Assembly: GCA_029555415.1 (NCBI GenBank)
Contig: JAKPSI010000082.1
Coordinates: 124,001-188,000 of the forward strand
Direction: 5' to 3'
From: Bacteroidota bacterium
GTDB taxonomy: Bacteria > Bacteroidota > Bacteroidia > Chitinophagales > Chitinophagaceae
DNA: 64,000 nucleotides
Part shown: piece by piece, positions 32,172-56,966 of the stretch
How the letters are laid out: the number at the start of each line of letters is the position of its first letter
Position numbering within the stretch: position 1 is the stretch's first letter
Made by a program: the position numbers and the translations under genes
The notes under the pieces: generated by a model
Database searches by the model: none
What the model saw: only the letters and a program-made list of their open reading frames with translations
What the model was told of the DNA's origin: nothing

Positions 32172-32855
32172 ATGGAAACCACCACCCGAAAGGTGCTGAT
32201 CGCTGACGATGAACCGGATATCCTCGAGATCCTGAAATACAACCTGGCCCATGAAGGGTATGAAGTGTTCACGGCCAAGGATGGGGATGATGCGCTTGAA
32301 AAAGCGAAACGTTTTTTACCGGATCTGATCGTACTGGACATGATGATGCCCCGCAAAACAGGTGTGGAAGTATGCCAGCTGCTGAGGGCTCAACCCGCGT
32401 TCCGTGAAACCCTGATCATATTCCTCACTGCGGTCAATGATGAGACCACCCAGATCAAAGGCCTGGAGACAGGTGCTGATGATTATCTCAATAAACCGGT
32501 CAGTCCGCGGGTATTCGTTTCCCGCGTCAATGCCCTTTTCCGGAGGCTGAATAAAAACGAAGTAAAGGCGATCAAGATCGATAATATCACGATCGATCCG
32601 GAACGATTCATGGTGCAGGTGGATGGCATCGATATCATTTTGGCCAAGAAAGAGTTTGAATTATTACACCTGCTTGCCCAAAAGCCAGGCCGCGTTTATC
32701 TCCGTAATGAGATCCTGAATCAGGTATGGGGTAATGAAGTGATCGTGGGCGACCGCACCATCGACGTACACATCCGCAAGATCCGCCAGAAACTTGGCAT
32801 TGATTGTATCACGACTGTGAAGGGCGTGGGATATAAGTTTGAACTTGGGAACTAA
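32172..32855 (+). CDS. PhoB-like response regulator (OmpR family)
   Basis: The 227-residue regulator has a receiver domain with the acidic pocket near ADDEPD, the phosphoacceptor aspartate in LIVLDMMMPRKTG (about residue 56) and the lysine in DDYLNKPVSP. The C-terminal winged helix includes KEFELLHLLAQKPGRVY and VGDRTIDVHIRKIRQKLG. The sequence alone only says OmpR/PhoB family. The PhoB assignment rests on its PhoR-like kinase partner, the adjacent phosphatase-like gene and the tandem 11-bp repeats upstream of itself and of many phosphorus genes nearby. Confidence 0.85.
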   Translation: METTTRKVLIADDEPDILEILKYNLAHEGYEVFTAKDGDDALEKAKRFLPDLIVLDMMMPRKTGVEVCQLLRAQPAFRETLIIFLTAVNDETTQIKGLETGADDYLNKPVSPRVFVSRVNALFRRLNKNEVKAIKIDNITIDPERFMVQVDGIDIILAKKEFELLHLLAQKPGRVYLRNEILNQVWGNEVIVGDRTIDVHIRKIRQKLGIDCITTVKGVGYKFELGN

Positions 32856-32941
32856 CGTATAGCTGCTAGCTATCAGCTGACACCTATTACCTCTTTCCCA
32901 TTTTCCTTTATCCATTATCAATTCTCCACTAACTTACAGAC

Positions 32942-34009
32942 ATGTTCGAAACCAAAAATCTCTCCCCGCGTCAGCTTTCCTGGCTTACGGCGCTGAGCCT
33001 GTCGGTTCCGATCAGTCTTGTAATATTTCTGATCGAAAAAAGCTGGTATTGGGCAGTTGGGTCATTTCTGGTGATCCTGCTGGGTAGTTACCTGCTGGTA
33101 TTTTTCGTACTGGAGCGTTTCATTTACCGGAAGATCAAACTCATTTATAAATTCATCTACCAGACAAAGGCGACAAAGCAGGAAGAGACCTATTATAAAT
33201 ATGTATTGCCGCGCAAGGGCATTGATGATGTACGGGAAGAAGTGGAGGCATGGGCGGAAGAAAAGAAACAGGAGATCGAGTTACTGCGGCATAATGAGCA
33301 ATTCCGGCGGGAATTCCTGCAGAATCTCTCTCATGAATTCAAGACCCCTGTGTTTTCCATACAAGGTTATATCGATACGTTACTGAGCGGCGCGATGAAT
33401 AACCCTGAAACGAATAAAAAGTTCCTGGAAAAAGCCTCGAAAAATGTTGACCGTCTAACGAATCTGCTGAACGACCTGGATGAGATATCCCGGCTTGAAA
33501 GAGGGGAATTGGTCCTGATGAGGCAGTTATTCGTCATACAGGACATCATCAAGGATGTATTCGACAGTTTATCCTCCAGAGCAGAAACCCTTCAGATCAC
33601 CTGCAGTATCAAGAAGGGATGTGAGTCACCATTGACCGCCTTCGCAGATAAGGAGAAGATCCGTCAGGTTTTACATAATCTGGTGGAGAACTCGATAAAG
33701 TATGGTAAAAAAGGTGGTTCAATAGTAGCCAGTATCTATAAAACGGATGATAAACACTTGTTGGTGGAGATCAGTGATGACGGAATGGGTATTTCTGAAA
33801 AATACCTGCCCCGCATTTTTGAAAGATTCTACAGAACTGAAGAAGGCAGGAGCATTGATATAACGGGTACCGGACTCGGACTTGCGATCTGCAAACACAT
33901 CATTGAAGCACATAATCAAACGATCCATGTGCGCAGCACAGAACATATCGGCACAACGATCGGGTTCACTTTAGACAAATCAAGAGAAACGCTTCCCCCT
34001 ACCAAATGA
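32942..34009 (+). CDS. PhoR-like sensor histidine kinase
   Basis: This 355-residue kinase has two N-terminal transmembrane helices with only a few residues between them (about 15-60), so it has no real periplasmic sensor domain, like PhoR. The H-box is NLSHEFKTPVFSIQGY, followed by N-box LVENSIKYGKKGG, G1 DDGMGISEKYLPRIFERFYR and G2 GTGLGLAICKHI. It follows the response regulator by 86 bp. A kinase with so short a loop probably reads phosphate status through a partner. The 3' end overlaps the convergent hydrolase gene by 11 bp. Confidence 0.88.
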   Translation: MFETKNLSPRQLSWLTALSLSVPISLVIFLIEKSWYWAVGSFLVILLGSYLLVFFVLERFIYRKIKLIYKFIYQTKATKQEETYYKYVLPRKGIDDVREEVEAWAEEKKQEIELLRHNEQFRREFLQNLSHEFKTPVFSIQGYIDTLLSGAMNNPETNKKFLEKASKNVDRLTNLLNDLDEISRLERGELVLMRQLFVIQDIIKDVFDSLSSRAETLQITCSIKKGCESPLTAFADKEKIRQVLHNLVENSIKYGKKGGSIVASIYKTDDKHLLVEISDDGMGISEKYLPRIFERFYRTEEGRSIDITGTGLGLAICKHIIEAHNQTIHVRSTEHIGTTIGFTLDKSRETLPPTK

Positions 34010-35093: not shown

Positions 35094-35125
35094 GTGTAAC
35101 GGTTTTGCAAAGAAAGCAACCGCAT

Positions 35126-35169: not shown

Positions 35170-35172
35170 GGC

Positions 35173-35205: not shown

Positions 35206-35236
35206 GGTGTAACTAATCGACTGCTTATGAGAAAAA

Positions 35237-38530: not shown

Positions 38531-38586
38531 ATTCACAAAATTTTTGCAAATATCGGTTCGATACTTCACCGAATATTTTCGTTTAG

Positions 38587-39015: not shown

Positions 39016-40134
39016 TTACCATGTTCTGGCTATCAGTTTTTCACAGAGACCAAAAGACAAAGTCATCCCGGCACCTCCTAATCCATTGATTATCTGAACA
39101 CCAGGTTCGGGCTCCAGAATGACTTCCGTGCTGCCATTGGTCATTTTCGGATAGATGCCATGCCAGCTTTCAGTGACTTCCTCAACCGGGAACCGGCTGA
39201 ATTTTCTCAGATAATCGAGGATCAGAAAATTGATACTGGCCCGATCGAACGGATCCAGGTCGATGCCATATTCATGTGAATCCCCAACCGTTAAGGCTCC
39301 TTCACTGTTCTGGGATACCATCACATGGATTCCGGCTGCGATATATTCCGGTAATTCTTCCCTGAATCTTTTTTGTAATAAAGCTGAGGATGGCGCCTTT
39401 TTAAAGCTATCATAATGCAGCAAGGACAATCCTCCGCAAATGGAAGGGCCGATGCGTACCGGTTGTATTCCAAGGCGCATCATCTGCAGTTTACATTTGG
39501 TTATGGCTTGTGCGGAATACAGATCAGGATACAAGGTTTCAAAATCCGCTCCGGAACATACATAGATGAGATCGGCTTCATGTACATCATTGCCTGTGAA
39601 AACGCCCGGATATAATATATCCGTTACCGCATGCCCCCATATGAATTCAACTCCGTATTTTTTGTTCAGCCAAACGGGTATGGCAGCCATTGCCTTGCGG
39701 GGATCAATGATCAGCTCCTGCTCACTGTACAAACTACCGGCTAGTCCTTCTCTGACCACATATGCCGATCTGGACTTCGTTTCCGAAGCATCCAACAAAC
39801 GGTACCCTCTGTGCCTGTATATTTCCTGCAGCTCATTCAATACGATCCATTCATCTTTTTCATAGGCAACATGTATCGAACCGGCTTCTTCAAACCAAAT
39901 GCCCGCCTCAGTACAGATCTCTTTCCAGATGCTTCTGGATAGAAGCGCCCGCTCATATAATTCTCCGTCAGGCTGACCGATCGGCCAAACCATTCCAAAA
40001 TTCCTGACCGAGGCACCAATGGCTTTTATCGACTTGTCTATTACGGTCACCCGGCATCCTCTTACTGCTAAAGCACGTGCCGTTGCAAGCCCAACGATAC
40101 CCGCCCCAACAACGATCGCTGTTTTTTTTCTCAT
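39016..40134 (-). CDS. FAD-dependent oxidoreductase, TIGR03364-like (phosphonate-associated)
   Basis: The 372-residue DAO-fold flavoprotein begins with the dinucleotide motif VVGAGIVGLATARAL and ends with NGLGGAGMTLSFGL, the FAD-binding C-terminus. The segment ASVRNFGMVWPIGQPDGE near residue 41 is typical of the TIGR03364 group, found beside phosphonate-degradation genes. Members of that group are thought to deaminate 2-aminoethylphosphonate or its N-methyl or hydroxy derivatives to the aldehyde. It is the last gene of a six-gene run and its start overlaps the upstream transporter stop (ATGA). The exact substrate is inferred. Confidence 0.75.
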   Translation of the reverse strand: MRKKTAIVVGAGIVGLATARALAVRGCRVTVIDKSIKAIGASVRNFGMVWPIGQPDGELYERALLSRSIWKEICTEAGIWFEEAGSIHVAYEKDEWIVLNELQEIYRHRGYRLLDASETKSRSAYVVREGLAGSLYSEQELIIDPRKAMAAIPVWLNKKYGVEFIWGHAVTDILYPGVFTGNDVHEADLIYVCSGADFETLYPDLYSAQAITKCKLQMMRLGIQPVRIGPSICGGLSLLHYDSFKKAPSSALLQKRFREELPEYIAAGIHVMVSQNSEGALTVGDSHEYGIDLDPFDRASINFLILDYLRKFSRFPVEEVTESWHGIYPKMTNGSTEVILEPEPGVQIINGLGGAGMTLSFGLCEKLIARTW

Positions 40135-41426
40135 ATGAGCCCTTGTTTGGTCCGAACGAATCTTCGGTTGAAATAAACGAGTGAAATGACCGTTCCCGCA
40201 AGTCCCAGAAAAGTCAAATAAATGACCCCTTCAGAATAAAATGAAGACCAGGTGATCTTTACATTGATGAATTCTTTCATCAGCATGACCGCTACACTTC
40301 CAAGATATCCGAAAGCATCCGCGAAATACATCAGGAAGCCTGTGTTTCCACGGATCTTAAATACAGCGATCAGCCGTTCAAAGAAAATACAGTTGAACGG
40401 TATATAACTCATGTACAGTCCGGCCCCGGTACATTGCATCCACAAATAGCCATTGATATATCCGTGCCTGAAAAGAAGAGAGGACACACCAGCGATCAAT
40501 AAACCGCAAAAGATCACAAAATGAACCATCCTGAATGCGAAGATGTTCCTTCTGATAACCACCAGTGAACTCATGATCAGCAGTACGATCAGCGAGGTGA
40601 TCGTTTCAGTTTGTGTATAAACCTTCTTATCACCGGCATAACCCAGTTCCTGCCACATATTAGCCATATAATTATCCCTGATGTCCCGCATCACGGTCAG
40701 TAAGACATATACCAGTACAACGATCAATAAACCCAGACTGAATTCACGGATGAATTTTTTCCTTGCCGGCGCATTCATTGGCTCCCGGACGGATCGCTCT
40801 GCAATATCATCGGGATCAGGTTGCGGGATCTTTTCCATCATCAGCAAAAAAACAATGAAAGGGATTATGAAAAGAAGGCCAGTCATGAAAGGCATCCAGT
40901 ATTCACTGATGTGCCATTCCGACATCACCCATGCACCCGCAGAACGTGTAAAGCCGCCGGAAAAGATAAAACTAACAGCCATGACCGCCCCGATAAGATC
41001 AGTGCTTTTTCTTCCCTCTACATAGCTGAATACGATCCCCCATAAAAAACCCAGAAAATATCCGTTCAGTAACAACCAGATCATCCCGAATGGCGCTGGT
41101 GTTATGGCGAAAAAGAATAAAGCGCCCCAGGAAGCAATGACCAATGACAGTGCAGCCTTCCAGCGTCCAAATCTTTTCAATTCGGCAATAAAGCGAATGC
41201 CGGAAAATTTACTGAGCATATAACCTGCAACCTGGCTGATGATCAGCAGGGTCTGATAGGAAACGCCCCAGAACATCTTTCCTTCAAAACGGGCGACAGT
41301 AAAGGGCTTCCGAAAAGCATAAACAGAAGCGTAGGTCAAAAAAGCTGTAATGGCAGCAAAAACCGCAATGGCAGCTTTTTTCCTCATCAATGCACGGGCA
41401 TCATTTGCTTTCAGGGTAAGGCTCAT
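40131..41426 (-). CDS. MFS-like membrane transporter (DUF5690 type)
   Basis: Starting at MSLTLKANDARALM (41426), the protein is 431 residues with about twelve transmembrane helices. Typical features are KKAAIAVFAAITAFLTYASVYAFRKPFTV at the N-terminus and VEGRKSTDLIGAVMAVSFI in the middle. It resembles the DUF5690 family, related to hexose-phosphate-type MFS carriers. It starts one base after the PhnZ stop and overlaps the FAD oxidoreductase start, so it is tightly embedded in the phosphonate operon. It is therefore the best candidate for inner-membrane uptake of the aminophosphonate; this is inference. Confidence 0.7.
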   Translation of the reverse strand: MSLTLKANDARALMRKKAAIAVFAAITAFLTYASVYAFRKPFTVARFEGKMFWGVSYQTLLIISQVAGYMLSKFSGIRFIAELKRFGRWKAALSLVIASWGALFFFAITPAPFGMIWLLLNGYFLGFLWGIVFSYVEGRKSTDLIGAVMAVSFIFSGGFTRSAGAWVMSEWHISEYWMPFMTGLLFIIPFIVFLLMMEKIPQPDPDDIAERSVREPMNAPARKKFIREFSLGLLIVVLVYVLLTVMRDIRDNYMANMWQELGYAGDKKVYTQTETITSLIVLLIMSSLVVIRRNIFAFRMVHFVIFCGLLIAGVSSLLFRHGYINGYLWMQCTGAGLYMSYIPFNCIFFERLIAVFKIRGNTGFLMYFADAFGYLGSVAVMLMKEFINVKITWSSFYSEGVIYLTFLGLAGTVISLVYFNRRFVRTKQGLI

Positions 41427-41427
41427 G

Positions 41428-42000
41428 CTATTGGGAAAGCAGGTGTCTGAACGACATTTGGAAATATTTATCAAGGTTTGGCAACGGGACATCAACGATC
41501 TTGGCCTGATCGTCCCATTCGCGGATCCTTATGAAAAGCTGATACATATCATTGTTCTCAAAATCTTCAGCTTCTTTTGCATTCATAGGCCCTCCCTGCT
41601 GACGCAGTGTTTCTTTGCTGGCCAGCGATAGCGAGGCTTCATAAGCCGGGTTTTTAAAAGTGAGGTAGCGTTTGGCCTGCACATGACCTTCCACGAGTGA
41701 AGCTATTTTCTCTGAATAACCCTTATCCCTGAGAAAATTCGCTCCGATGTATTCATGATCAACAACACCGAAACCCTCCATATCACTGACTGTCATGATA
41801 TGCTCACATAAATGGCCGATATCATGAAAAAAAGCGGCAAGGATCACTTCTTCATCATACCCTTGCGTTTCAGCGAGTAATGCAGCCTGGCACATATGCT
41901 CCAGCTGTGATACGGCTTCACCTATATAATCTTCTTCACCATAGTTCCTGTAAAGCGCCATTACTTCTTCCGTAACAGCTTTTGCCTGTAGTGGTGTCAT
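41428..42000 (-). CDS. phnZ: PhnZ-like HD-domain di-iron phosphonate oxygenase
   Basis: PhnZ uses a mixed-valence di-iron site and O2 to cleave 2-amino-1-hydroxyethylphosphonate to glycine and phosphate. The 190-residue sequence follows PhnZ along its whole length: DYIGEAVSQLEH (Tyr25, Glu28, His35), AAFFHDIGH (His59, Asp60, His63), GFGVVDHEYIGA (His82), LVEGHVQAKRYL (His106), TLRQQGGPM and REWDDQAKIVDVPLP (Asp163). The substrate tyrosine and the glutamate that distinguish PhnZ from ordinary HD hydrolases are present. The usual partner, the 2-oxoglutarate-dependent hydroxylase PhnY, is absent from the window. Confidence 0.85.
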   Translation of the reverse strand: MTPLQAKAVTEEVMALYRNYGEEDYIGEAVSQLEHMCQAALLAETQGYDEEVILAAFFHDIGHLCEHIMTVSDMEGFGVVDHEYIGANFLRDKGYSEKIASLVEGHVQAKRYLTFKNPAYEASLSLASKETLRQQGGPMNAKEAEDFENNDMYQLFIRIREWDDQAKIVDVPLPNLDKYFQMSFRHLLSQ

Positions 42001-42005
42001 TGAAA

Positions 42006-43082
42006 TCAGTTTGATCTTTGAAAGATGATCGGCTCCAGCACCGGGTGCTCCGGCTTGAAAGTGAATCCGAGGATAGAAGCAATGGTAGTGGCTAACTGTC
42101 CCTGGAACAGGGTCTTACTGTTCTTTATCTCCCCAAGCGGGGCGATACCCGGGCCCATTACTGCGATCCAGATCTGGCCTGCATCCTGAATGTCAGATCC
42201 GTGGTGACGCCACTGTGATTTGATGATATCTCCCCTGCCGTGATCGCAGGTCACGATCAATGTTGTGTTATCCTTATAGCCTGGCATATTTTGTACGGTT
42301 TTCCACAGATCAGCGATCATCGCATCTTCCGCATGAGCGCTACCCAGGTACTGATCATAATCGCCTTCGTGTGCAAAATCATCCGTTTCATCAAATGCGA
42401 TATAAAGCACTTTGGGGTGATATGCTTTCAGGTATTCCCTTGCCGAAAAATAAGTCAGCAGATCCGGCCTGACACCAATGGGACGGGTCGTGAGGAATTG
42501 CATGTCATTGAGCAACTGAAGTTGCGGATCCCTGAAATGCAGCGTATCCACATCGGCATTGACGAAAACGCCGCTTCTTTTAGTGTTTAGGATATAAGGG
42601 AACACATCCCACGTGGAGAACGCGGCAACTTTGCCTTTGTACCCACGTTGCTGGTTCAGGAACTCCAGCACATTGGTATTCTTATTCCAGATCTTATCAT
42701 TGGAGTTGACACTATCATCCGGGAACCCCGTGAAGATCTCGTTGTAGCCAGGATAGGAGAACCAGTATTTATTGGCATTATTGACAAGGCTGCCTGCTTT
42801 CCTGTTACCATATAACTGCCCTTGCCGGAGAAGCGTGGACCAGAAAAACGGAAGGAGTTTCTCCCGCCTGGCTGCAGGCTCATTGCTCCAGTAAGCACTT
42901 AATAAAGCAGCCGTGTCACTTGTATAAAGTGAATCACGGGAGAGCAGCGGGTCAGCGCCACTGAACACTTCCTGCCAGCGGAATCCATCCAGCGTTACTA
43001 TGATGAGATTACCACCTTCTTTTTGCGCACGCAGTTCAAGTGCTGCGAAAAATATGAATAAGGATAAAAGGGCTTTTTTCAT
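42006..43082 (-). CDS. Alkaline-phosphatase-superfamily hydrolase, paralogue 2
   Basis: This 358-residue secreted enzyme is a close paralogue of the protein at 33999-35093. It shows a signal peptide (cleavage near LELRAQ), VTLDGFRWQEVF, SYPGYNEIFTG, FDETDDFAHEG and TCDHGRGD, the two-metal ligands of the superfamily. It sits between SusD and phnZ in the operon. A role in liberating an aminophosphonate from an ester, lipid or glycan outside the cytoplasm is therefore plausible. It lacks the SusC-type promoter repeats of its own; a hairpin separates it from SusD. Confidence 0.8.
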   Translation of the reverse strand: MKKALLSLFIFFAALELRAQKEGGNLIIVTLDGFRWQEVFSGADPLLSRDSLYTSDTAALLSAYWSNEPAARREKLLPFFWSTLLRQGQLYGNRKAGSLVNNANKYWFSYPGYNEIFTGFPDDSVNSNDKIWNKNTNVLEFLNQQRGYKGKVAAFSTWDVFPYILNTKRSGVFVNADVDTLHFRDPQLQLLNDMQFLTTRPIGVRPDLLTYFSAREYLKAYHPKVLYIAFDETDDFAHEGDYDQYLGSAHAEDAMIADLWKTVQNMPGYKDNTTLIVTCDHGRGDIIKSQWRHHGSDIQDAGQIWIAVMGPGIAPLGEIKNSKTLFQGQLATTIASILGFTFKPEHPVLEPIIFQRSN

Positions 43083-43099
43083 TTTATATTTTTTTAAAA

Positions 43100-43125
43100 G
43101 GGCGACTCCTGAAAAGGAGTCGCCG
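43100..43125 (-). terminator. Hairpin between susD and the hydrolase (attenuator or weak terminator)
   Basis: GGCGACTCCT (43101-43110) and AGGAGTCGCC (43115-43124) pair perfectly around GAAA. On the minus strand the stem is followed by CCTTTT and then A residues, so the U-tract is short. It would partly stop transcription after susD and reduce expression of the downstream catabolic genes. Confidence 0.6.
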
Positions 43126-43168
43126 GGATCATCACGTTTAGTAACTGCTTATTATGAGAAAACAATCT

Positions 43169-44746
43169 TTAATTCAGGATCCACATTTTCGCATTGATAT
43201 TGTCATTACCTGCATACTGACTTTGTAATGAACTTGTCAGGTTCTCCGTATTGGTAGAACGTTCAGAGGAAGGGTATTGAAAACGGAGCGGGATCACATT
43301 ACTGTTACCGGTTCCGGGGCCGGTAAGGAATACGGGCTGACCGGTTCTGCGCCATTGATAGTATGCTTCCAGCCCGGAGTTACGGGCAAATGACAGGTAT
43401 TTCTGAACCAGGATCTGATTCAATCCTGTGGTATTGTTGCCGGCATATTTTACACTTGCCTGATTATAGAACGTATTGAAGTTGAAATTCACGGTATAAT
43501 TCACATAATCTCCCAGCAGCGCATTGGGTTTCAGGAATGTAACGGTGTTATCACCATCAACGATACCATAGAAAGCCATACTGGCCCAAAGACCATTCTG
43601 GTACCATGTTTCAGCGTTCCCTGTTACCCAACCCCTGTTGATGGCTTCTGCGATATTGAAGCACATTTCCTGATAACTCACGATGAAGGTGTTCTCCCCG
43701 GTGAAACCATTGTAATAGCGTTTACGGTTATACAGGGAGTATTTACCCAGCTGTACTTTAGCAGCCATGTTACTGAGGTCCTCGCCGGAACTCGCACCTA
43801 TAAATGAACGGAAATCAGTATCCGCAAAGCCAAGTCCGCGTGCAGGTTCAGCAACTCTCATGGCACGGAGGTCATTCATCGATGACAGTGTATTCAGCCA
43901 GGTCGCTGCCATGTTCAGACGCAGGGCATCAAATCCGAAATTCGCTGCATTATTGGGGTACTGGTTCGTAGTAGCGTTATATGCGAACTCAAGGTTATCC
44001 GCAGCACTCGTCATCACAGGATACTTTGTGGTATTCGTAACAACATCACTGAAGAGCTGTTTCACTTTGAGATCGGGATCCGTATCCTTCTTACTCAGAT
44101 GGATCAAAACACGAAGCTTGAAAGTGTTGACTACTTTCTGCCACTTCTTGAGGGCGTTCAAGGGCGTCTCAGCGCCATTGGTGCGTTCCTGGAAGTAAAA
44201 GTCGCCTTGTAAGGATACATCCGCTTTGCTGATCAGTGTAGTGAGCATGGTGTTTGCCTCTTCCAGCAACTGCAGACTCTGGATGAAAACCTGCTTTTGA
44301 GCATCATATTTCGGTTTCTGATTCTCAAGTCCTTTTAAGGCATCGGTCATCGGAATGTCCCCGAATTTCAGGGTCATATTCACGAAAAAATAAGCACGGA
44401 GGAATTTACCCAGCGCGGCATAAGGGTTCACATCAGACCCGCTTGATTTTTTCGCTTCGGCTTCCATGGCTACAATATTGTTGAGTACGCCATAGTCCAT
44501 ATCCGCACTTCCGGACCAGTATTCATTGTTGCCGTAATAAGTATAATTCCGGCAAGTGAATTGTGACCACCTTTCAGCATCACCATCAGGGTAAACAGGC
44601 AGGCTGTTCAGTACACCTCTGAGGAGCAGTGAGGGAGGTACACTGGTAGGCTGATTCGGGTTTACGATATAGTCCTCGAATTTTTTCTTACAGCCGCCTG
44701 CAATGAGCAGGATCGCCGCAAAAACTAATATTTTAAAACTTTTCAT
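43169..44746 (-). CDS. SusD/RagB-like outer-membrane lipoprotein
   Basis: The 525-residue lipoprotein has a lipobox LLIAGGC with Cys near residue 19. It starts KKKFEDYIVNPNQPTSVPPSLLL, typical of the SusD-like_2 group. A tetratricopeptide-rich middle (AYFFVNMTLKFGDIPMTDALKG) and a C-terminus ending NDNINAKMWILN follow. It caps the TonB transporter encoded upstream and binds the ligand at the surface. Because the operon continues into phosphonate genes rather than glycosidases, the ligand is more likely a phosphonate-bearing molecule than a plain glycan. Confidence 0.9.
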   Translation of the reverse strand: MKSFKILVFAAILLIAGGCKKKFEDYIVNPNQPTSVPPSLLLRGVLNSLPVYPDGDAERWSQFTCRNYTYYGNNEYWSGSADMDYGVLNNIVAMEAEAKKSSGSDVNPYAALGKFLRAYFFVNMTLKFGDIPMTDALKGLENQKPKYDAQKQVFIQSLQLLEEANTMLTTLISKADVSLQGDFYFQERTNGAETPLNALKKWQKVVNTFKLRVLIHLSKKDTDPDLKVKQLFSDVVTNTTKYPVMTSAADNLEFAYNATTNQYPNNAANFGFDALRLNMAATWLNTLSSMNDLRAMRVAEPARGLGFADTDFRSFIGASSGEDLSNMAAKVQLGKYSLYNRKRYYNGFTGENTFIVSYQEMCFNIAEAINRGWVTGNAETWYQNGLWASMAFYGIVDGDNTVTFLKPNALLGDYVNYTVNFNFNTFYNQASVKYAGNNTTGLNQILVQKYLSFARNSGLEAYYQWRRTGQPVFLTGPGTGNSNVIPLRFQYPSSERSTNTENLTSSLQSQYAGNDNINAKMWILN

Positions 44747-44774
44747 GTTATTCGTTTTACAGTTTTCTTTTCAA

Positions 44775-47700
44775 TTAGAAACCAATGTTTACATTAAGAC
44801 CATAGCTGCGGGTTGTTGGGGTCTGCAGATTGTATTCGCGACTGTTGCCGCTGTATATGTCACGACCGGAATACTGGTCAACATCCATATCCTTGAACCT
44901 TGAAGGGAAAAAATACAGCAGGTTACGGCCCACCAGGGAAACATCCACTTTATTTATGAATGATTTGCCCAGGAATTTTGCAGGAAGTGAATAGGTGATC
45001 ACAACTTCCCTCAGTTTAGCATATGTCTTTGAAACCATTGTGTGCTCAGGATCATTGAAGAAACTACTTACGTAATCCTGGATGTACTTCACTTTGCTTG
45101 CGTTGGTGGCGAATTGAAGATCTTTCAGGTTTGTGATCGCACCGGTAACAGGATCATACTGGATCTGAACACCGTTCGAAACCTGAACACCTTCACCAAC
45201 ATAAATACCACTGTAGTTAGGGTCAGCATAATGATGGAACTCATAATCTCTGGCTTCACCAACTTTACCAACGGCTGTTTCATATGCACGGCCGCCTTCG
45301 ATCAGCTTGCGGAGCACGCGATCCTGTACTTTTCCGCCCACTTTACCATCAAACTGGAAAGAGAAACTGATGGTTTTATAAGTGAATTTGTTATTCACGC
45401 CCCATCCCCAGTTAGGATCGGCATGCCCGAGGTATTGATCTTTGGGAAGATAAACAGGATAACCAGCGGAGTTATTGATCACCTGACCATCTGCGGATCT
45501 GGCTACCATTTTACCATACAATTTGTCAACCCTGTCACCCTGGTGCAATTGATAGCTTTCAAAGTTTGAAGGCAGTTCTTTATAAATCTCTTTGAATGCA
45601 GACCAGTTTGCCAGTACTTCCCAGTTCAGACCATTCTTACTACGGATCGGTGTACCGCTGATCGAGACCTCTTCACCGGAGAGTTTGGTTTTGATCGCAT
45701 TCGTGGTATATCCTGTCAGACCAGTTGTTTGTGAGATCGGATAATTCACAATTCCGGGCCCTTTGATATTGGAATAATAAGTAGCACTGAAGGAGAGCCT
45801 GTTCTTCAGGAATTTCATATCCAGACCGAACTCAGTACTGTTCGTCTGAGAAGATTTGATATTCGGGTCGATCTTATTACCCGGAGCATAAGCACCAGTA
45901 AGGTTATTATACACGGGTGAAATGCTGTAAGAAGGATCGGACAGTGAGAATGTAGGACCTCCGTATGTTGTCACATATGGAGCGCCGTAGCCGAGGGGAT
46001 ATGCAGCAGGCCCGATATAGGAAGTAGTACTCGGGGCTTTTGCTGAAGCATAACTTGCCCTGACCTTCATGAAGCTGATGGATTTGGGCATTTTCATATA
46101 ATCAGACAGCACGGAAGAAACCGAGAAGGAGGGATAGAAATACTCATTATTCTTCACGGGAAGGGATGAATGTTTGTCATAACGGCCAGTAGCTGCTACA
46201 GACAAATAATTCTTAAAATCAATGCCCACAGAATAATAAGCACTCAACACAAGCATGTCCGCAGTAAAATTATAAGCGTGGACCGCATTGAGGGAGTTGG
46301 AGAAATTGTACAGCCCGGGTACGTTCAGATAATCCGTTGTAACAAAAGTTGAGTTATACGTGAAATTACGGGCGTTGATACCTGCCAGCCCGTCAATTGA
46401 AAAATCCTTTCCGATCTTTCCTTTATACTTCACGATACCTTCGATATTATTATCGAACATGGTCCGCTTGTCCTCACGGTAATCACCCCTGTTCTCTTCA
46501 CGACCATACGGGTGAGCGGAATAAGGTAATTTTTCGGTACGCAATACATCATACGTGCTCACGTTCGCTCTCAGCAAAGCTTCCAGATGAGAATTGAACT
46601 TATAGGTCAGGCCGACATTCCCATAAACATCGGTTTTGTAATGCCCCCGGAGCCATTCATAGCTCATAAAGTAAGGATTATGATAACGCTGGTATTCTGC
46701 GAAAATTGATTGTGTTCCTACCTTGCCCGGCTGCCAGTAATTTTTCATATCATCCACACTCCAGTCCGCACCGGTCCAAATGGTGATATTATAGATCACA
46801 CTGTTGGGGCCATACAGAACGTCCGGAATATTCGGCGTGAACTGACGGTTATAATTGAGTCCGCCATCCAGATGCAGCTTACTCGTAAGGTCATAACCAG
46901 CGTTGATATTGAAATCCGCGATATTCAGTTTCGTATTCGGGATGATACCACGCTGATAAGTATGACTGAACGACATACGGATCGAAGAGCGGTCGGTCAC
47001 ACTTGAGAAATTGATATTATTCGTGGTCAGTAACCCTGCCTGGATGAACCGCTTGAGGTTATCCTTACCACGTGCAACATAAGGTGTGCCCTGGCGGATA
47101 CCTGTTAAAGGATCGATAGGGCTGTCATACTGAGGGATCAGCTGACCTTCAAATTTAGGGCCCCAAACATCATAGTCACCATCGTTAAGTCCACCACCTT
47201 TACCATTGCCGAAAGAATACTGGGCGTATTCACCACCGCCATACAGATCCTGGGTTTTGGGGATCGCAATGAAGCCTTTATTCATCTGCGTACTTGAGTT
47301 GAACTCAACGGAAAATCCTTTGGCGTTCTTTTTACCTTTTTTGGTTGTGATCAGGATCGCTCCGTTCTGAGCACGGCTACCATAAATAGCGGTAGCGGCC
47401 AGGCCTTTCAGCACAGTATAGCTCTCCACATCATCCGGGCTGATATTCCAGGTATCTGATGTGATGGGCATACCATCCACTACATATAAAGAGATATTAC
47501 CGCCCCGAAGCGAAACTGCAGGAGCACCCAGTAATTCCGGGGAGATACCCACATCCAGTCCTGAAATCTTACCTACCAGGCTATTGATCGGATTCGGCTC
47601 TCTGGCTTTAACCAGTTCATCTCCCTTGATCTCCTGTACAGAGTAACCAAGGCGTTTCACTTCTTTTTTAACGCCCAGACCTGTCACAACGACTTCAGAC

Positions 47701-48008
47701 AGATTCTGGACCTGAGGTTTCAATACGACCAGAACAGCTTCCGATGCTTTCAGTTTTTTATCTTCAAAACCGACACTGGTGATCACCAGAATATCTGTTG
47801 AAGAAGCCTCGATCTTAAAAGACCCATCCAGACCCGTCAGGGCCATCTTGTGTGATCTTTGATTTTCAATTGTTGCACCCGAAACAGGAGCACTGTTCTC
47901 TCCGGTCACTTTTCCGGTAACGGACTGTTGAGCGAAAACTGACACGGAAAGCATCAGCATGAACAACAGCATGGCCGGAATTCTGAAATGTAGTTTTTTA
48001 CGCAGCAT
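44775..48008 (-). CDS. SusC/RagA-type TonB-linked outer-membrane transporter
   Basis: Starting at MLRKKLHFRIPAM (48008), the protein is 1077 residues. It has a signal peptide (cleavage near VFAQQ), a carboxypeptidase-like domain (SVTGKVTGENSAPVSGATIE), the SusC plug signature VVVTGLGVKKEVKRLGYSVQ and NSLVGKISGLDVG, and a barrel ending YGLNVNIGF. With the SusD gene 28 bp downstream it forms the outer-membrane import complex. It leads the operon that continues into the hydrolase, phnZ, transporter and FAD oxidoreductase genes. Four 11-bp Pho-like repeats lie 51-94 bp upstream. Confidence 0.93.
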   Translation of the reverse strand: MLRKKLHFRIPAMLLFMLMLSVSVFAQQSVTGKVTGENSAPVSGATIENQRSHKMALTGLDGSFKIEASSTDILVITSVGFEDKKLKASEAVLVVLKPQVQNLSEVVVTGLGVKKEVKRLGYSVQEIKGDELVKAREPNPINSLVGKISGLDVGISPELLGAPAVSLRGGNISLYVVDGMPITSDTWNISPDDVESYTVLKGLAATAIYGSRAQNGAILITTKKGKKNAKGFSVEFNSSTQMNKGFIAIPKTQDLYGGGEYAQYSFGNGKGGGLNDGDYDVWGPKFEGQLIPQYDSPIDPLTGIRQGTPYVARGKDNLKRFIQAGLLTTNNINFSSVTDRSSIRMSFSHTYQRGIIPNTKLNIADFNINAGYDLTSKLHLDGGLNYNRQFTPNIPDVLYGPNSVIYNITIWTGADWSVDDMKNYWQPGKVGTQSIFAEYQRYHNPYFMSYEWLRGHYKTDVYGNVGLTYKFNSHLEALLRANVSTYDVLRTEKLPYSAHPYGREENRGDYREDKRTMFDNNIEGIVKYKGKIGKDFSIDGLAGINARNFTYNSTFVTTDYLNVPGLYNFSNSLNAVHAYNFTADMLVLSAYYSVGIDFKNYLSVAATGRYDKHSSLPVKNNEYFYPSFSVSSVLSDYMKMPKSISFMKVRASYASAKAPSTTSYIGPAAYPLGYGAPYVTTYGGPTFSLSDPSYSISPVYNNLTGAYAPGNKIDPNIKSSQTNSTEFGLDMKFLKNRLSFSATYYSNIKGPGIVNYPISQTTGLTGYTTNAIKTKLSGEEVSISGTPIRSKNGLNWEVLANWSAFKEIYKELPSNFESYQLHQGDRVDKLYGKMVARSADGQVINNSAGYPVYLPKDQYLGHADPNWGWGVNNKFTYKTISFSFQFDGKVGGKVQDRVLRKLIEGGRAYETAVGKVGEARDYEFHHYADPNYSGIYVGEGVQVSNGVQIQYDPVTGAITNLKDLQFATNASKVKYIQDYVSSFFNDPEHTMVSKTYAKLREVVITYSLPAKFLGKSFINKVDVSLVGRNLLYFFPSRFKDMDVDQYSGRDIYSGNSREYNLQTPTTRSYGLNVNIGF

Positions 48009-48058
48009 AATGATTGGTTTGATAATTTGATTTGGAGGGACAAAAGTGAAGTTGAAAT

Positions 48059-48102
48059 GTGAATACAATCTTAAAACCGTGTGACGGATACATTATTGAA
48101 TT
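48059..48102 (-). promoter_or_regulatory. Pho-box-like 11-bp repeats upstream of susC
   Basis: Units start GTGAA (48059), CTTAA (48070), GTGAC (48081) and ATTAT (48092) at 11-bp spacing, 51-94 bp from the susC start. They are weaker matches than the arrays at 56967 and 58403. The element may also influence the divergent PlcP-like gene. Confidence 0.45.
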
Positions 48103-48233
48103 GTGTTGTGCGCTTAACATATACGATCTTACTTAGAGGAAACATTCCCTTCACAATCAGATCACAATGGCTTAAGTATTACGTAGCATTCAATTCATAC
48201 AGGAGATTGTACTTTGTAAAACCCCTGTACACA

Positions 48234-49091
48234 TTGAAAAAGAAAGCGATCGACGTTGCCGTCATTTCCGATCTCCATCTTGGCACTTATGGCTGTCATG
48301 CACGTGAGATCGTGAACTACCTGAGAAGCATTTCACCGCAGATCCTGATCCTGAATGGTGATATCATTGACGGATGGCAGTTCAGTAAACGATATTTCCC
48401 TGCTCAGCACCTGCAGGTCATCAAAGAAGTGCTGAACCATATCAGCAGTGGCGTTCGCGTCATCTACATTACCGGCAATCACGATGAATTATTAAGGAGA
48501 TACAGTAATCTCCAGTTGAGCAATTTCCAGTTGACGGACAAACTGGTCATGGAGATCAATGGTGAAATGACCTGGATCTTTCATGGTGATGTATTCGATC
48601 ATACCACAAAAGGAAGTGCCAGGCTCATCGCCAAGCTGGGTGGCTATGGTTACGACTGGCTCATTTTACTGAACCGGTCCATCAACTGGTTCCTCAAAAA
48701 AACAGGCAGCAATCCGGTCAGTCTTTCCAAAAAAGTAAAGAACAGTGTCAAAAAAGCCGTGAAGTGGATCGGCGATTTTGAGCAAACTGCAGCTGAACTG
48801 GCCATCGAAAAGAAATATGACACCGTCATCTGTGGCCATATTCATCAGCCCCAACAAAAGACCATTGAAACGAAGAACGGGAAAGTACAATATCTCAACA
48901 GCGGCGACTGGATCGAAAATCTGACCGCACTGGAATACGCGGATAAGAAATGGAGTATCTATAAATATGATGAGTCACAATTCCGGGATGAACCGCTCCA
49001 AACGGTCACCAGGCATTTACCGGAACTGAATGTCGTCACGGAAGAAGTAAGCCTCTTCATCAGCTCACTCCTTGTTCAAACAGGAACCTAA
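48234..49091 (+). CDS. PlcP-like metallophosphoesterase (COG2908)
   Basis: The conserved protein begins KKKAIDVAVISDLHLGTYG. The calcineurin-like metal motifs follow in order: SDLHLG, NGDIID, TGNHDE, FHGDVFD and CGHIHQ. The C-terminal SGDWIENLTALEY is typical of the LpxH-related COG2908 branch, which includes PlcP, a phospholipase C induced by phosphate starvation that converts phospholipids to diacylglycerol. The start is uncertain: TTG 48234 fits the family, while the GTG at 48081 would add 51 residues that overlap the susC promoter repeats. It is followed 11 bp later by a glycosyltransferase, as plcP is by agt in several bacteria. Confidence 0.7.
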   Translation: MKKKAIDVAVISDLHLGTYGCHAREIVNYLRSISPQILILNGDIIDGWQFSKRYFPAQHLQVIKEVLNHISSGVRVIYITGNHDELLRRYSNLQLSNFQLTDKLVMEINGEMTWIFHGDVFDHTTKGSARLIAKLGGYGYDWLILLNRSINWFLKKTGSNPVSLSKKVKNSVKKAVKWIGDFEQTAAELAIEKKYDTVICGHIHQPQQKTIETKNGKVQYLNSGDWIENLTALEYADKKWSIYKYDESQFRDEPLQTVTRHLPELNVVTEEVSLFISSLLVQTGT

Positions 49092-49102
49092 ATTCAATAA
49101 TT

Positions 49103-50140
49103 ATGAAGATCTTTTATGCAGTGCAAGCAACAGGTAATGGACATATCAGTCGTGCCATGGAACTATTGCCCTGGCTGGAAAAAAAAGGAACAGTTGACTT
49201 ATTCCTGAGCGGAGACAACAGTCAGTTGAACCTGGATGCGCCTGTTAAGTACCGCAGCAAGGGTATCAGCCTTTATTACAGCTGCAAAGGAGGACTGAGT
49301 TATTCCAAAATGATCAGGAACTTCTCTTTCAGGCGTATTCAACGGGACATCAATGACCTGCCAGTGGAGAAATACGATCTGGTCATCAACGATTTCGATT
49401 TCATCACTGCAGCCGCCTGTAAAAGAAAAAAGATCCCCAGTGTCAACTTCGGGCACCAGGCAAGTTTTCAGTCCGGAAAGGTCCCCAGACCCCAAAAAAA
49501 GAACCTGATCGGTGAACAATTATTGCGTCACTTCGCCCATGCCGATCATTATATAGGCCTCCACTTCGATCAGTATGATGATTTTATTTTCAAACCCGTC
49601 ATCAAAAAGGAAATACTCGAAGCTGAGCCACAGAACAAAGGGCATGTTACGGTATATCTGCCCTCCTATTGTATTCCGGAACTCGTATCCGTATTCGGTT
49701 CCATACCTGATATGCAGTTCGAGATCTTTTGCAGAGAGATCGGCCAGCCTGAAAAAAGAGGGAACCTGTTATTATTGCCCGTCAACAAGACCCGTTTCGA
49801 CGAAAGTTTCAGGAATTGCTATGGGATCATCACCGGAGGCGGTTTTGAAACACCGGCAGAGGCCCTGCATATGGGCAAGAAGCTGATGGCCATTCCCATC
49901 AAAGGTCAGTACGAACAGCAATGCAATGCCGCAGCCCTTGAGAGGATGGGTGTAATGTGTACGGACAGTATTGGCGCAGGCTTTCGCGACAAATTCGATG
50001 ACTGGATGAATAACGGGAAAGCTATACGAATAGATTACAGTAACAGTATTCCGCAATGCATGAACAGGCTCTTCAGTATCGCAGAAACACTGCCCCGGAT
50101 GGAACCCAGAGCAATAGAAGATCTGAGTATGAGTTTCTAG
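49103..50140 (+). CDS. MurG/MGDG-synthase-like glycosyltransferase
   Basis: The 345-residue GT-B enzyme has the N-terminal loop QATGNGHISRAMEL of GT28-like transferases. The C-terminal nucleotide-sugar site reads GIITGGGFETPAEALHMGKKLMAIP followed by QYEQQCNAAALE. It has no signal peptide or membrane helix and may bind the inner leaflet peripherally. It follows the PlcP-like gene by 11 bp. Together they could turn phospholipids into diacylglycerol and then glycolipid. Another acceptor, such as a surface glycan, cannot be excluded. Confidence 0.7.
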   Translation: MKIFYAVQATGNGHISRAMELLPWLEKKGTVDLFLSGDNSQLNLDAPVKYRSKGISLYYSCKGGLSYSKMIRNFSFRRIQRDINDLPVEKYDLVINDFDFITAAACKRKKIPSVNFGHQASFQSGKVPRPQKKNLIGEQLLRHFAHADHYIGLHFDQYDDFIFKPVIKKEILEAEPQNKGHVTVYLPSYCIPELVSVFGSIPDMQFEIFCREIGQPEKRGNLLLLPVNKTRFDESFRNCYGIITGGGFETPAEALHMGKKLMAIPIKGQYEQQCNAAALERMGVMCTDSIGAGFRDKFDDWMNNGKAIRIDYSNSIPQCMNRLFSIAETLPRMEPRAIEDLSMSF

Positions 50141-50221
50141 ATTTTATTATTGGATCGTCATGAACAAACTCCATCATGCGTATTTGAAGAAATACCGGAT
50201 CAATGATTCGCCAGTCAGGCT

Positions 50222-50254
50222 GTCATTTCAATATTACATATAGATTAATTCTAT
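50222..50254 (+). promoter_or_regulatory. Possible Pho-box-like repeats upstream of phnW
   Basis: Units start GTCAT (50222), ATTAC (50233) and ATTAA (50244) at 11-bp spacing, 56-88 bp upstream of phnW. The orientation relative to the gene is opposite to that at the minus-strand genes, which weakens the call. Confidence 0.35.
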
Positions 50255-50309
50255 CCTCCTGAATTCACCGGCCCGATAACTTCTCTATCATTGTTCAAAA
50301 TTTATAAAA

Positions 50310-51437
50310 ATGGGCAACAGGGTCGATAAATTATTATTCACGCCGGGACCGCTAACAACTTCCGGAACCGTAAAATCCGCGATGCTGCAAGATCTGGGCT
50401 CACGGGATAATGCTTTCATTGAAAAAGTTACATCGATACGCGCCAGATTGTTATCGATGGCAAATGTTTCAGCCGCGGCAGGATATACCAGCATCATCAT
50501 ACAGGGTTCAGGCACCTTTGGGATAGAGGCGGTCATTTCTTCCGCAATACCCGCTAACGGTCACCTGCTCATTCTCATCAATGGGGTATACGGTGAGCGT
50601 ATATCAAAGATTGCCTCCATTCACAAGATCCTTCAAACCAGGATGGTATTTCCGGAGAACCAGATACCAGATCCTATATTAGTACGTCAGATGCTGGAAC
50701 AGGACCCAACGATCACACATGTTGCCATCATACATTGTGAAACCACGACGGGTATCATCAATCCTATTGAAGCGATCGGTGAAATATGTTCTGAATACAG
50801 GAAAACATATATAGTTGATGCCATGAGCAGTTTTGGTGCCTACCCCGTGGATATGGAGGCATCACATATCGACTTTCTCATCTCATCCTCCAATAAGTGT
50901 ATTGAAGGAGTTCCCGGGTTTTCATTCGTTCTTGCACGCACAGAGACAATTAAGACTTGCGAAAACCAGGCCCGTACGCTCACGCTGGACCTTTTTGCCC
51001 AATGGAAAGGATTGGAATCAGATGGTCAGTTCCGATTTACTCCTCCAACACATGTTTTACTGGCATTTGCCAGGGCTATGGATGAACTGGATCAGGAAGG
51101 CGGTGTAGCAGGCCGGATGTTGCGTTACAAAGAGAACTACGAGCTTTTATCCGAAGGGATGCTGCAGATGGGATTCAAAGAATATATCGAGCCCGGAAAC
51201 AGGGGTTATATCATTACTTGTTTCCATTATCCAACGCACCCGGATTTTTCATTCCGGAATTTCTACAATTCTCTAAGTGATAAAGGCTTTGTGATCTATC
51301 CCGGCAAACTGAGTCAGGTCGATTGTTTCAGGATCGGGAACATTGGTCAGATCCGGTCCACAGATATCCACCGGCTGCTACTGGCGATCCGTACTACGCT
51401 TGGAGAATACGGGATCACTGTTCCCCTTCAACCGTGA
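50310..51437 (+). CDS. phnW: 2-aminoethylphosphonate--pyruvate transaminase PhnW
   Basis: PhnW is a PLP enzyme that transfers the amino group of 2-aminoethylphosphonate to pyruvate, giving phosphonoacetaldehyde and alanine. The 375-residue sequence carries the family signatures LLFTPGPLTTS at the N-terminus, IIQGSGTFGIEAV, HCETTTGIINPI, VDAMSSFGAYPVD and the PLP lysine in SSSNKCIEGVPGF. RFTPPTHVLLAF and VIYPGKLSQVDCFRIGNIG are also typical. Its product would be consumed by the HAD hydrolase that begins 16 bp downstream. It is preceded by 169 bp containing candidate Pho-like repeats. Confidence 0.93.
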   Translation: MGNRVDKLLFTPGPLTTSGTVKSAMLQDLGSRDNAFIEKVTSIRARLLSMANVSAAAGYTSIIIQGSGTFGIEAVISSAIPANGHLLILINGVYGERISKIASIHKILQTRMVFPENQIPDPILVRQMLEQDPTITHVAIIHCETTTGIINPIEAIGEICSEYRKTYIVDAMSSFGAYPVDMEASHIDFLISSSNKCIEGVPGFSFVLARTETIKTCENQARTLTLDLFAQWKGLESDGQFRFTPPTHVLLAFARAMDELDQEGGVAGRMLRYKENYELLSEGMLQMGFKEYIEPGNRGYIITCFHYPTHPDFSFRNFYNSLSDKGFVIYPGKLSQVDCFRIGNIGQIRSTDIHRLLLAIRTTLGEYGITVPLQP

Positions 51438-51453
51438 ATCAAAATTTCCAAGA

Positions 51454-52167
51454 ATGACAAAAAAATATAATAAAATGATGATCAATCTTGTCGTGTTCGA
51501 TATGGCCGGAACGGTTGTTGACGAACAGAATGTAGTGTACAAAACCCTTCAGAAAGCGATCAATCAGGCAGGTATTCCGGTTACACTGGAACAGGTACTG
51601 GCTGATGGTGCAGGAAAAGAAAAAAAAGCAGCGATCACTGATATCGTGGCGATCCATGCACCCGGACAAACGCCTGAAGCAATAGAAAGTATGTTCCGGT
51701 TTTTTCTGACAGAATTGGATACAGCTTATGATGAACTGGATGTTATACCGATCAAAGGCGCTGAGGAAGTATTTCAAACCTTACTGGAAAACGGGATCTA
51801 TGTAGTGCTGAACACCGGTTATAACCGGGCGACTGCAGAAAAACTGATCAAAAAGCTGGGCTGGGTGATCGGAGAGGATTTTGACGAACTCGTCACTGCA
51901 TCCGATGTATTGCATGCCCGGCCTGAGCCGGATATGATCCTGCTGGCTATGGAAAAGACAGAAATTACAGACCCTTCGGAAGTCCTGAAGATCGGTGATT
52001 CTGCGATTGACATTGAAGAAGGCAAGAACGCAGGTTGCGGCGTTACCGTGGGGATCACAACGGGTGCCCAAACACGTGAACAACTTGCTGCAGCAGCGCC
52101 TGATCATATCATCGACAGCTTACAGGAACTGATCGCACTGGTCGGTCTTGATGACATTGAAGAATAA
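51454..52167 (+). CDS. PhnX-like HAD hydrolase (TIGR03351-type phosphonatase-like)
   Basis: The 237-residue HAD protein has the phosphonatase-type first motif FDMAGTVVD in place of DxDx(T/V). An arginine replaces the usual motif-III lysine (HARPEPDMI), motif IV is IGDSAIDIEEG, and lysines in the cap (DGAGKEKKAAI) could form the Schiff base with an aldehyde. These fit a phosphonoacetaldehyde or hydroxy-phosphonoacetaldehyde hydrolase. The sequence looks closer to the PhnX-like TIGR03351 clade than to classical PhnX. Starts at 51454 and 51475 are possible. It follows phnW by 16 bp and is closed by a terminator. Confidence 0.8.
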   Translation: MTKKYNKMMINLVVFDMAGTVVDEQNVVYKTLQKAINQAGIPVTLEQVLADGAGKEKKAAITDIVAIHAPGQTPEAIESMFRFFLTELDTAYDELDVIPIKGAEEVFQTLLENGIYVVLNTGYNRATAEKLIKKLGWVIGEDFDELVTASDVLHARPEPDMILLAMEKTEITDPSEVLKIGDSAIDIEEGKNAGCGVTVGITTGAQTREQLAAAAPDHIIDSLQELIALVGLDDIEE

Positions 52168-54113: not shown

Positions 54114-54142
54114 TTCTCTATTTTTAAATTTTAATGCGCTGA

Positions 54143-56932: not shown

Positions 56933-56966
56933 GTTCTGTAATTTGCGGCAAAGGACGCCCGGATAG

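Follow-up and report, generated by a model that had tools for sequence, protein, structure and literature searches.

In a Chitinophagaceae genome without a match to the usual phosphonate import families or to C-P lyase, a locus at 39016-52167 of a 64,000-nucleotide stretch (contig JAKPSI010000082.1; this whole stretch is called the window) may provide access to phosphonates. In it a SusC/SusD pair stands with predicted enzymes for the breakdown of 2-aminoethylphosphonate (AEP) and related compounds. The genome comprises 3.97 Mb at 98% completeness, with a single PhnZ and 12 SusC genes over the model cut-off. Profile searches of this genome gave 0 matches to PF06007 (PhnJ), PF12974 (Phosphonate-bd, the PhnD-type binding proteins), PF13343 (the family of AepX) and PF05721 (PhyH). 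The locus is real and conserved well beyond chance, and it is a phosphonate-centred variant of a system type whose concept has been described for Flavobacterium (PMC8115612). We consider it reasonably probable that it is a phosphate-starvation locus which scavenges aminophosphonates bound in larger molecules. It offers a candidate for each step from the outer membrane to cleavage of the C-P bond.

Gene content of the locus

The minus strand carries a run of six genes (39016-48008) in the order SusC, SusD, alkaline-phosphatase (ALP)-superfamily phosphoesterase, PhnZ, DUF5690 protein and FAD enzyme (Table 1). Their spacing is 28, 86, 5 and 1 bases, followed by a 4-base overlap, as expected for a single operon. 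PhnW and the PhnX-like candidate lie in tandem on the plus strand and face this run. An earlier note, made from the sequence alone, had named these eight genes with their positions, and both agreed with the scores of curated models. What it called an MFS-like transporter belongs to PF18943 (DUF5690). Its statement that the catalytic partners are aminophosphonate enzymes was borne out by family matches. Its gene list passed over a metallophosphoesterase and a glycosyltransferase between SusC and PhnW, as well as the phosphate-starvation neighbourhood. Glycan-degrading enzymes were found neither in the operon nor among the ten scanned proteins of 39016-52167. The start of SusC was set at ATG 48008, with TTG at 48068 likewise open, that of DUF5690 at ATG 41426 and that of the PhnX-like protein at ATG 51478 in preference to TTG 51343. 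SusD carries a lipobox-like IAGGC motif, recognised by eye.

Table 1. Features of the locus and of its surroundings in the window, with model scores
Feature	Coordinates	Strand	Evidence or remark
SusC-like TonB-dependent outer-membrane transporter	44775..48008	-	TIGR04056 445 bits, cut-off 368
SusD-like surface lipoprotein	43169..44746	-	PF12771 183 bits and PF12741 119 bits, both above cut-off
ALP-superfamily phosphoesterase	42006..43082	-	PF01663 40 bits, cut-off 23
PhnZ, di-iron HD oxygenase, (R)-1-hydroxy-2-aminoethylphosphonate-cleaving type	41428..42000	-	TIGR03276 212.9 bits, just below cut-off 214.6; closest PDB sequence PhnZ 4mlm, E 8.5e-45 (TmpB, 2.7e-28)
DUF5690 major-facilitator-type inner-membrane protein	40131..41426	-	PF18943 515 bits, cut-off 25
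TIGR03364 FAD amine oxidoreductase, family containing PbfD1	39016..40134	-	396 bits, cut-off 285
PhnW, AEP:pyruvate transaminase	50310..51437	+	TIGR02326 475 bits, cut-off 401; 1m32 E 3.5e-111
PhnX-like phosphonoacetaldehyde hydrolase candidate	51478..52167	+	TIGR03351 245 bits, cut-off 219
Direct repeat TCACAAT-N4-TCACAAT, 11-base period, Pho-box-like	48151..48168		between divergent genes
Calcineurin-like metallophosphoesterase, start uncertain	48081..49091	+	PF00149
Glycosyltransferase	49103..50140	+	PF13528 102 bits; TIGR00661 139 bits, below cut-off 196
PhoB-like response regulator and PhoR-like histidine kinase	32172..34009	+	TIGR02154 227 bits, below cut-off 296; HisKA/HATPase
Second ALP-superfamily gene beside a TonB-receptor-like gene without SusD	33999-38569		receptor Oar-type by eye, weak model match
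Another TonB-receptor-like gene and a lipoprotein	52650-56986		lipoprotein by eye
DUF47-like/Pit pair	58519-60394

Conservation in relatives

Of the family's 244 genomes, 68 carry a PhnZ match, in 41 of 101 genera, and the surroundings of the other 67 genes, from 40 genera, were fetched. Genes were labelled by best BLAST match (E 1e-8) to the window proteins and a few proteins of relatives, so that divergent SusD types are under-counted. SusD was present on the same strand, no more than 9 kb from PhnZ, in 60/67 loci and 35/40 genera. Where the contig extends 9 kb or more to each side, 45/48 loci agreed. In three of the seven SusD-negative loci the contig ends less than 1.4 kb upstream of PhnZ; the others are L113, L118, L124 (6.6 kb upstream present) and L126. 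By simple arithmetic (12 SusC in 3.97 Mb), a same-strand SusC would be expected within 8-9 kb of a random gene in about 2-3% of cases, and a few per cent more often in relatives richer in SusC. A chance neighbourhood was thus ruled out.

Within the same distance of PhnZ, a phosphoesterase was present in 59 of the 67 loci, DUF5690 in 61, the FAD enzyme in 61, the PhnX-like gene in 51 and PhnW in 5. SusC, SusD, phosphoesterase, DUF5690 and FAD enzyme occurred all together in 44/67 loci (38/48 with full flanks). The labelled gene directly 5' of PhnZ was a phosphoesterase in 47 loci, SusD in 9, a TonB receptor in 6 and PhnW in 1, with none in 4.

The search was extended to named genomes, using the best 80 of at least 476 PhnZ relatives; after removal of 12 duplicates of the family set, 68 were counted. 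The five genes stood together in 36/68 of these best matches and in 24/39 with full flanks. Among the matches listed, the Mucilaginibacter loci hold the gene set in two divergent units, with PhnZ followed directly by SusC in 18/19, and SusC-SusD converges on PhnZ in 8/13 Cytophagales-type loci. The remaining 5/13 have no SusC-SusD, two of them near contig ends. A gene set that outlasts such reordering is likely functional. The synteny search suggested in the earlier note therefore gave a positive outcome in the family, and also in some loci of Mucilaginibacter and the Cytophagales. Since the locus occurs in named strains, which among the matches listed include Ginsengibacter hankyongi, Sediminibacterium soli and several Mucilaginibacter, the route is open to experiment.

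These frequencies also bear on the idea of an ordinary polysaccharide utilisation locus (PUL) that phosphonate genes adjoin by chance. SusC and SusD are normally glycan importers, and the idea draws on this usual role. It has to account for 60/67 loci against the few per cent expected, and for an operon that holds no glycoside hydrolase. None was present either in the 25 most frequent families of a neighbour survey, which covered 131 proteins of 180-420 residues taken from 265 unlabelled open reading frames within 7 kb. We regard this explanation as scarcely credible. PhyH was likewise not in those 25 families, the smallest of which had four members; another 177 families ranked below them.

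Catalytic residues and predicted folds

In PhnZ, the residues Y24, E27, H34, H58, D59, H62, H81, H105, K109, R110 and D162 were invariant in an alignment of 39 sequences and match the PhnZ structure. We take them to be the iron ligands and the substrate-contacting residues. The partner enzyme PhnY* is, we assume, a 2-oxoglutarate oxygenase of the PhyH family that makes (R)-1-hydroxy-AEP from AEP. PhyH proteins were present in 180/244 genomes of the family, and 7/68 PhnZ genomes were without any, namely this genome and six others. For this genome, the missing PhyH match led us to reject the PhnY*/PhnZ pathway from AEP. Hence, of the oxidative and hydrolytic C-P cleavage routes in the earlier note, PhnZ, PhnW and the PhnX-like protein are present, and an oxidative start from AEP is hardly likely. 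PhnZ probably meets hydroxy-AEP made elsewhere, and the simplest reading of a genome without any PhyH-family protein is that hydroxy-AEP itself is a nutrient.

The PhnX-like protein scored 109 bits against the classical phosphonatase model TIGR01422, below the cut-off of 220. The Lys of its GAGK motif aligns with the Lys of 2iof, which is Arg in 2ioh. For the FAD enzyme, the relative PbfD1 is annotated as TIGR03364 and described as oxidising N-methyl-AEP (PMC10590968).

In the ALP-superfamily enzyme, D32, S109, D234, H238, D280, H281 and H294 were invariant in 32 sequences. The two-metal site and nucleophile of this superfamily presumably follow the pattern D-S/T-D-H-D-H-H, and the enzyme fits it within a matching fold of the predicted model (pLDDT 93.3). 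The best VIA-align match of this model was PafA (Z 29.6, rmsd 3.0, 295 aligned), which we take to be a monoesterase, followed by SPAP and NPP-type enzymes (Z 26-28) and phosphonate monoester hydrolase (25.0). Foldseek ranked YejM, sulfatases and LtaS first. Neither ranking separates activity on monoesters from that on diesters or phosphonate esters. Against PDB sequences, a profile search returned nothing better than E 0.011 and a single-sequence search nothing. The enzyme is probably periplasmic, judging by eye from a signal-peptide-like N terminus. The contig carries further genes of this kind: the second ALP-superfamily gene of the 33999-38569 region is 50% identical to the operon's enzyme, and a third copy elsewhere on the same contig is 49% identical.

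DUF5690 was modelled with a major-facilitator fold (pLDDT 93.5). VIA placed the glucose-6-phosphate transporter SLC37A4 first (Z 32.1, rmsd 3.4, 362 aligned), in a near tie with URAT1 and DgoT (Z 31.0). Against PDB, the profile gave no match and the single sequence two weak ones (E 0.24 and 0.57). DUF5690 was present in 30/296 genomes of the phylum. A further 26 DUF5690 contexts were fetched and 25 labelled, of which 17 carried at least one phosphonate-enzyme label. DUF5690 is a candidate aminophosphonate importer, a function that the locus predicts for the family.

Exchange of enzymes between loci

Phosphoesterases near SusD and PhnZ in relatives belong to unrelated families, namely the ALP superfamily, PF04185, GDPD and PF03372 (Exo_endo_phos), and additional TonB receptors sometimes accompany them. 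The C-P enzymes are exchanged as well. L112 carries PhnA, phosphonoacetaldehyde dehydrogenase and a different FAD enzyme; by BLAST, PhnA with the dehydrogenase occurred in 4/67 family loci. L075 carries HpnZ. In L320, which is without PhnZ, SusC-SusD-DUF5690 is followed by the (R)-hydroxy-AEP ammonia-lyase PbfA (696 bits, cut-off 525). PbfA and PhnZ are described as the two known (R)-hydroxy-AEP enzymes, with no cluster in the published table holding both (PMC8154272). With L320, both occur in a SusCD setting.

The recurrence of phosphoesterases weighs on another import model, in which SusCD alone takes up free or small soluble aminophosphonates, the ALP enzyme acts on other phosphate esters, and no larger molecule serves as their source. 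In this genome nothing matched the PhnD-type, AepX-type or PhnJ families, so that some other uptake route is needed, and L093, L099 and L102 combine SusCD with PhnZ but lack any recognised phosphoesterase within 9 kb. This model has difficulty with the phosphoesterase in 59/67 family loci, drawn from several unrelated families, and with the size of AEP itself, which at about 125 Da should pass porins. We judge it improbable.

A joint exchange of SusC, SusD and ALP types was also considered. In the family, low-identity SusC/SusD (about 32/29%) occur mostly with an ALP enzyme of about 47% identity and a 441-residue gene. The idea was dropped because Mucilaginibacter combines a high-identity SusC with an ALP enzyme of about 48%. 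The 441-residue protein, without a Pfam match, lies for example between SusD and the ALP enzyme in L062 (11518-12840) and was found in loci with the low-identity SusCD type.

Regulation

Pho boxes have an 11-base period. Between the divergent genes of the window, TCACAAT stands at 48151 and 48162, and an exact 7/7 repeat at offset 11 arose in 81/5000 shuffles of 48009-48230. Upstream regions of SusC were compared across 73 non-redundant loci, PhnZ-centred with a few DUF5690-centred, with SusC starts guessed by script. A 7-base direct repeat (at least 6/7) at the 11-base period was present in 45/73, against 19.1 in shuffled sequence (z 8.5). Offset 22 gave z 4.9, and all remaining offsets between 8 and 24 stayed at 1.9 or below. 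In control upstream regions of unlabelled genes of the same loci, the repeat was present in 38/135 against 29.2 shuffled (z 2.1). These repeats, together with PhoB/PhoR-like genes nearby, suggest that the locus may be induced at low phosphate.

In the window, a TTAAC-type array of at least four units was found only at 56967-57025. It looks like a strong Pho-box array: six TTAAC-like units follow one another every 11 bases, immediately ahead of the TonB-receptor-like gene 54143-56986.

In 38/73 loci, the gene for an HTH-cupin regulator is found no further than 1.5 kb from the SusC start (for example L120 2436-3005, upstream of SusC), and HTH_3 and Cupin_2 were each present in 16 of the 131 neighbour proteins. 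This regulator may sense the substrate. The 11-base repeats were unlinked to its presence (24/38, 6/9 and 15/26), and no such regulator was seen in the operon of the window.

Proposed pathway and cargo of the SusCD pair

In the pathway that we propose, SusD and SusC would bind an ester that bears phosphonate or phosphate, for instance a lipid head group or a glycoconjugate fragment, and import it across the outer membrane. The periplasmic ALP-superfamily enzyme would hydrolyse the ester and so free AEP and its natural variants from the larger molecule, and DUF5690 would move these into the cytoplasm. There, PhnW would convert AEP to phosphonoacetaldehyde and the FAD enzyme would convert N-methyl-AEP to the same product, which the PhnX-like enzyme would split into acetaldehyde and phosphate. 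PhnZ would turn ready-made (R)-1-hydroxy-AEP into glycine and phosphate. If true, the SusCD model would include phosphonates in addition to glycans and phosphate esters, and natural hydroxy-AEP would be an overlooked phosphorus source.

The lineage of the pair was followed in a quick tree of 103 SusC sequences, with long outgroup branches and thin outgroup sampling. The SusC of the window and 63 SusC of other phosphonate loci formed one clade (starred). A second clade with 24 from phosphonate loci, two of them second copies, was its sister (support 84). Both clades excluded the genome's remaining 11 SusC, and four further locus SusC, three of them extra SusC genes, grouped with these 11.

SusD matches at E 1e-60 or better were present in 77/244 family genomes. 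In a reverse test, 20 SusD loci from PhnZ-free genomes or far from PhnZ were hand-picked, down to about 40% identity; this was a non-random sample, scored within the fetched stretch. Another phosphonate enzyme was present in 9, DUF5690 only in 1, a contig edge in 2 and no phosphonate gene in 8. A SusCD pair reserved for phosphonates was thus not borne out. Five of the eight stand beside a phosphoesterase: L311-L313 hold SusCD with an ALP gene only, L321 holds SusCD with GDPD beside PhoB/PhoR, and in L324 (5853-9815), which may be a locus for phospholipid utilisation, the gene after SusC-SusD encodes a phosphocholine-specific phospholipase C (775 bits, cut-off 580). Of the other three, one lies between Pit and PhoB/PhoR genes and two are without a telling neighbour. 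From this distribution, the SusCD lineage seems to handle organophosphorus esters generally, phosphonates included, and its cargo is better called an organophosphorus ester than phosphonate only.

This result counts for a broader alternative of generic phosphate utilisation, in which ordinary phosphodiesters (head groups of phospholipids, pieces of teichoic or nucleic acids) are imported and cut by SusCD and the ALP enzyme. The phosphonate enzymes would then be passengers that share the regulation of a Pho island, and free AEP would enter via porins and DUF5690. The window does sit in a phosphate-starvation neighbourhood, the five SusCD-phosphoesterase loci fit, and PusCD pairs of Flavobacterium are described with ordinary phosphatases (PMC8115612). 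Mere passengers are less easily reconciled with a phosphoesterase or SusD directly before PhnZ in 56/67 family loci, with PhnZ directly before SusC in the 18/19 listed Mucilaginibacter loci, with a co-location that outlasts rearrangement and enzyme swaps, or with the 9/20 PhnZ-free loci that still have another phosphonate enzyme. We hold this alternative to be possible and rather unlikely.

Several observations weigh against the scavenging of bound aminophosphonates as proposed above. On the side of import, the 8/20 PhnZ-free loci without a phosphonate gene, five of them beside a phosphoesterase, mean that the import step may serve ordinary phosphate esters. In L097, the SusC beside PhnZ is unrelated to the main clades and comes with a PF07980-type SusD, so the SusCD pair is replaceable and was replaced at least once. 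L113 has the remaining set without SusCD, and PhnZ stands alone in L118, L124 and L126. Among the best 80 of at least 476 named-genome matches, SusC and SusD were both present in 45/68 loci (29/39 with full flanks), and several Algoriphagus and Cyclobacterium loci were without them. As for the enzymes, the fold searches match the ALP enzyme to monoesterase, NPP and phosphonate monoester hydrolase alike, 8/25 further DUF5690 contexts were without a phosphonate label, and PhyH is so common in the family that PhnY* is possible in most other PhnZ genomes. The 11-base repeat of the window itself is a single pair.

A more specific version of bound-phosphonate scavenging is selfish feeding on phosphonate-decorated surface molecules of other organisms. 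Fragments bearing both AEP and (R)-1-hydroxy-AEP would be imported and the ester cut in the periplasm, after which a dedicated enzyme would mineralise each head group. The phosphonoglycan of the soil amoeba Acanthamoeba is reported to contain AEP and hydroxy-AEP (Korn 1973, as cited in PMC8154272), and predatory bacteria are described with hydroxy-AEP-containing lipids (PMC8154272). We offer this version tentatively. If true, the occurrence of PhnZ without PhnY* and the exchange of PhnZ for PbfA would identify hydroxy-AEP as a nutrient common to these bacteria, and DUF5690 would be a new family of aminophosphonate transporters.

Comparison with known systems

The nearest described systems are the low-phosphate-induced SusCD pairs of Flavobacterium johnsoniae and relatives, named PusCD (Lidbury et al. 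2020, PMC8115612). They are described as sharing their loci with phosphatases, diesterases and enzymes of phosphonate degradation, the last of which are treated in one sentence of the accessible text. The window resembles them in its SusC/SusD pair and the co-located predicted phosphoesterase. It differs in having the phosphonate module as its conserved core across Chitinophagaceae, Mucilaginibacter and Cytophagales. The gene-by-gene architecture, PhnZ without PhnY*, the enzyme swaps and DUF5690 do not appear in the accessible PusCD text. Induction at low phosphate, described for PusCD, is represented here by proxies, the PhoB/PhoR-like genes and the 11-base repeats.

PhnZ is described in association with phnWX or phnWAY, with PhnZ and PbfA as alternative side entries for natural (R)-hydroxy-AEP (Zangelmi et al. 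2021, PMC8154272). Unlike for the window, the accessible text describes neither SusCD nor a phosphoesterase nor an outer-membrane step for those clusters. Measured against the hydrolytic PhnWX pathway, the window has PhnW, and classical PhnX is replaced by a TIGR03351 protein. Of the PhnY*/PhnZ pathway, it has PhnZ with conserved residues, and a PhyH-family partner was not found in the genome. PbfD is described as oxidising N-methyl-AEP to phosphonoacetaldehyde and as acting in the same way on AEP, equally well or less well, and homologues in the FCB group are mentioned (PMC10590968). The characterised PbfD enzymes come from Acinetobacter and Mariniblastus; the FAD enzyme of the window shares the family of PbfD1, and its function is predicted. 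AepP is a GlpT-related major-facilitator AEP permease, co-located with PhnWX or PhnWAY and reported also from one Bacteroidetes genome (Murphy et al. 2021, PMC8316502). DUF5690 is likened to AepP by its major-facilitator class and co-location; its profile is without a PDB match.

The locus resembles a PUL in that a hydrolase and an inner-membrane transporter come after its SusC/SusD pair. Unlike a PUL, the operon has no glycan-active enzyme, and its catabolic enzymes cleave C-P bonds. The earlier note put forward a phosphonate analogue of a PUL; the idea of a phosphorus analogue was already in print (PMC8115612).

In a literature search that was thin on subscription journals and preprints, nothing beyond Lidbury et al. 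(2020) was found that ties SusCD or SusD to phosphonates, nor anything that joins PhnZ, Bacteroidetes, phosphonate and TonB-dependent transport, or that treats the role of DUF5690, the locus architecture, its spread or the enzyme swaps. The accessible text of PMC9426549, PMC8812569 and PMC9671461 holds no tie between SusCD and phosphonates.

Flanking genes

The Pho-related genes that flank the locus all lie within about 10 kb on either side, and with them the window looks like a phosphate-starvation island. In these flanks, the TonB-receptor models and the PhoB model score below their cut-offs. Two proteins are without a Pfam or NCBIfam match: 29744-31966 (739 residues) adjoins the PhoB-like gene, and 57033-58358 (441 residues) has a TonB-receptor-like gene on one side and the DUF47/Pit pair on the other.

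The metallophosphoesterase and glycosyltransferase at 48081-50140 may be a PlcP-like lipid-remodelling unit, a candidate neighbour outside the catabolic set. This reading follows from the description of PlcP and a neighbouring glycosyltransferase that replace phospholipids in phosphate starvation (PMC4796936). The metallophosphoesterase also adjoins SusC in several relatives.

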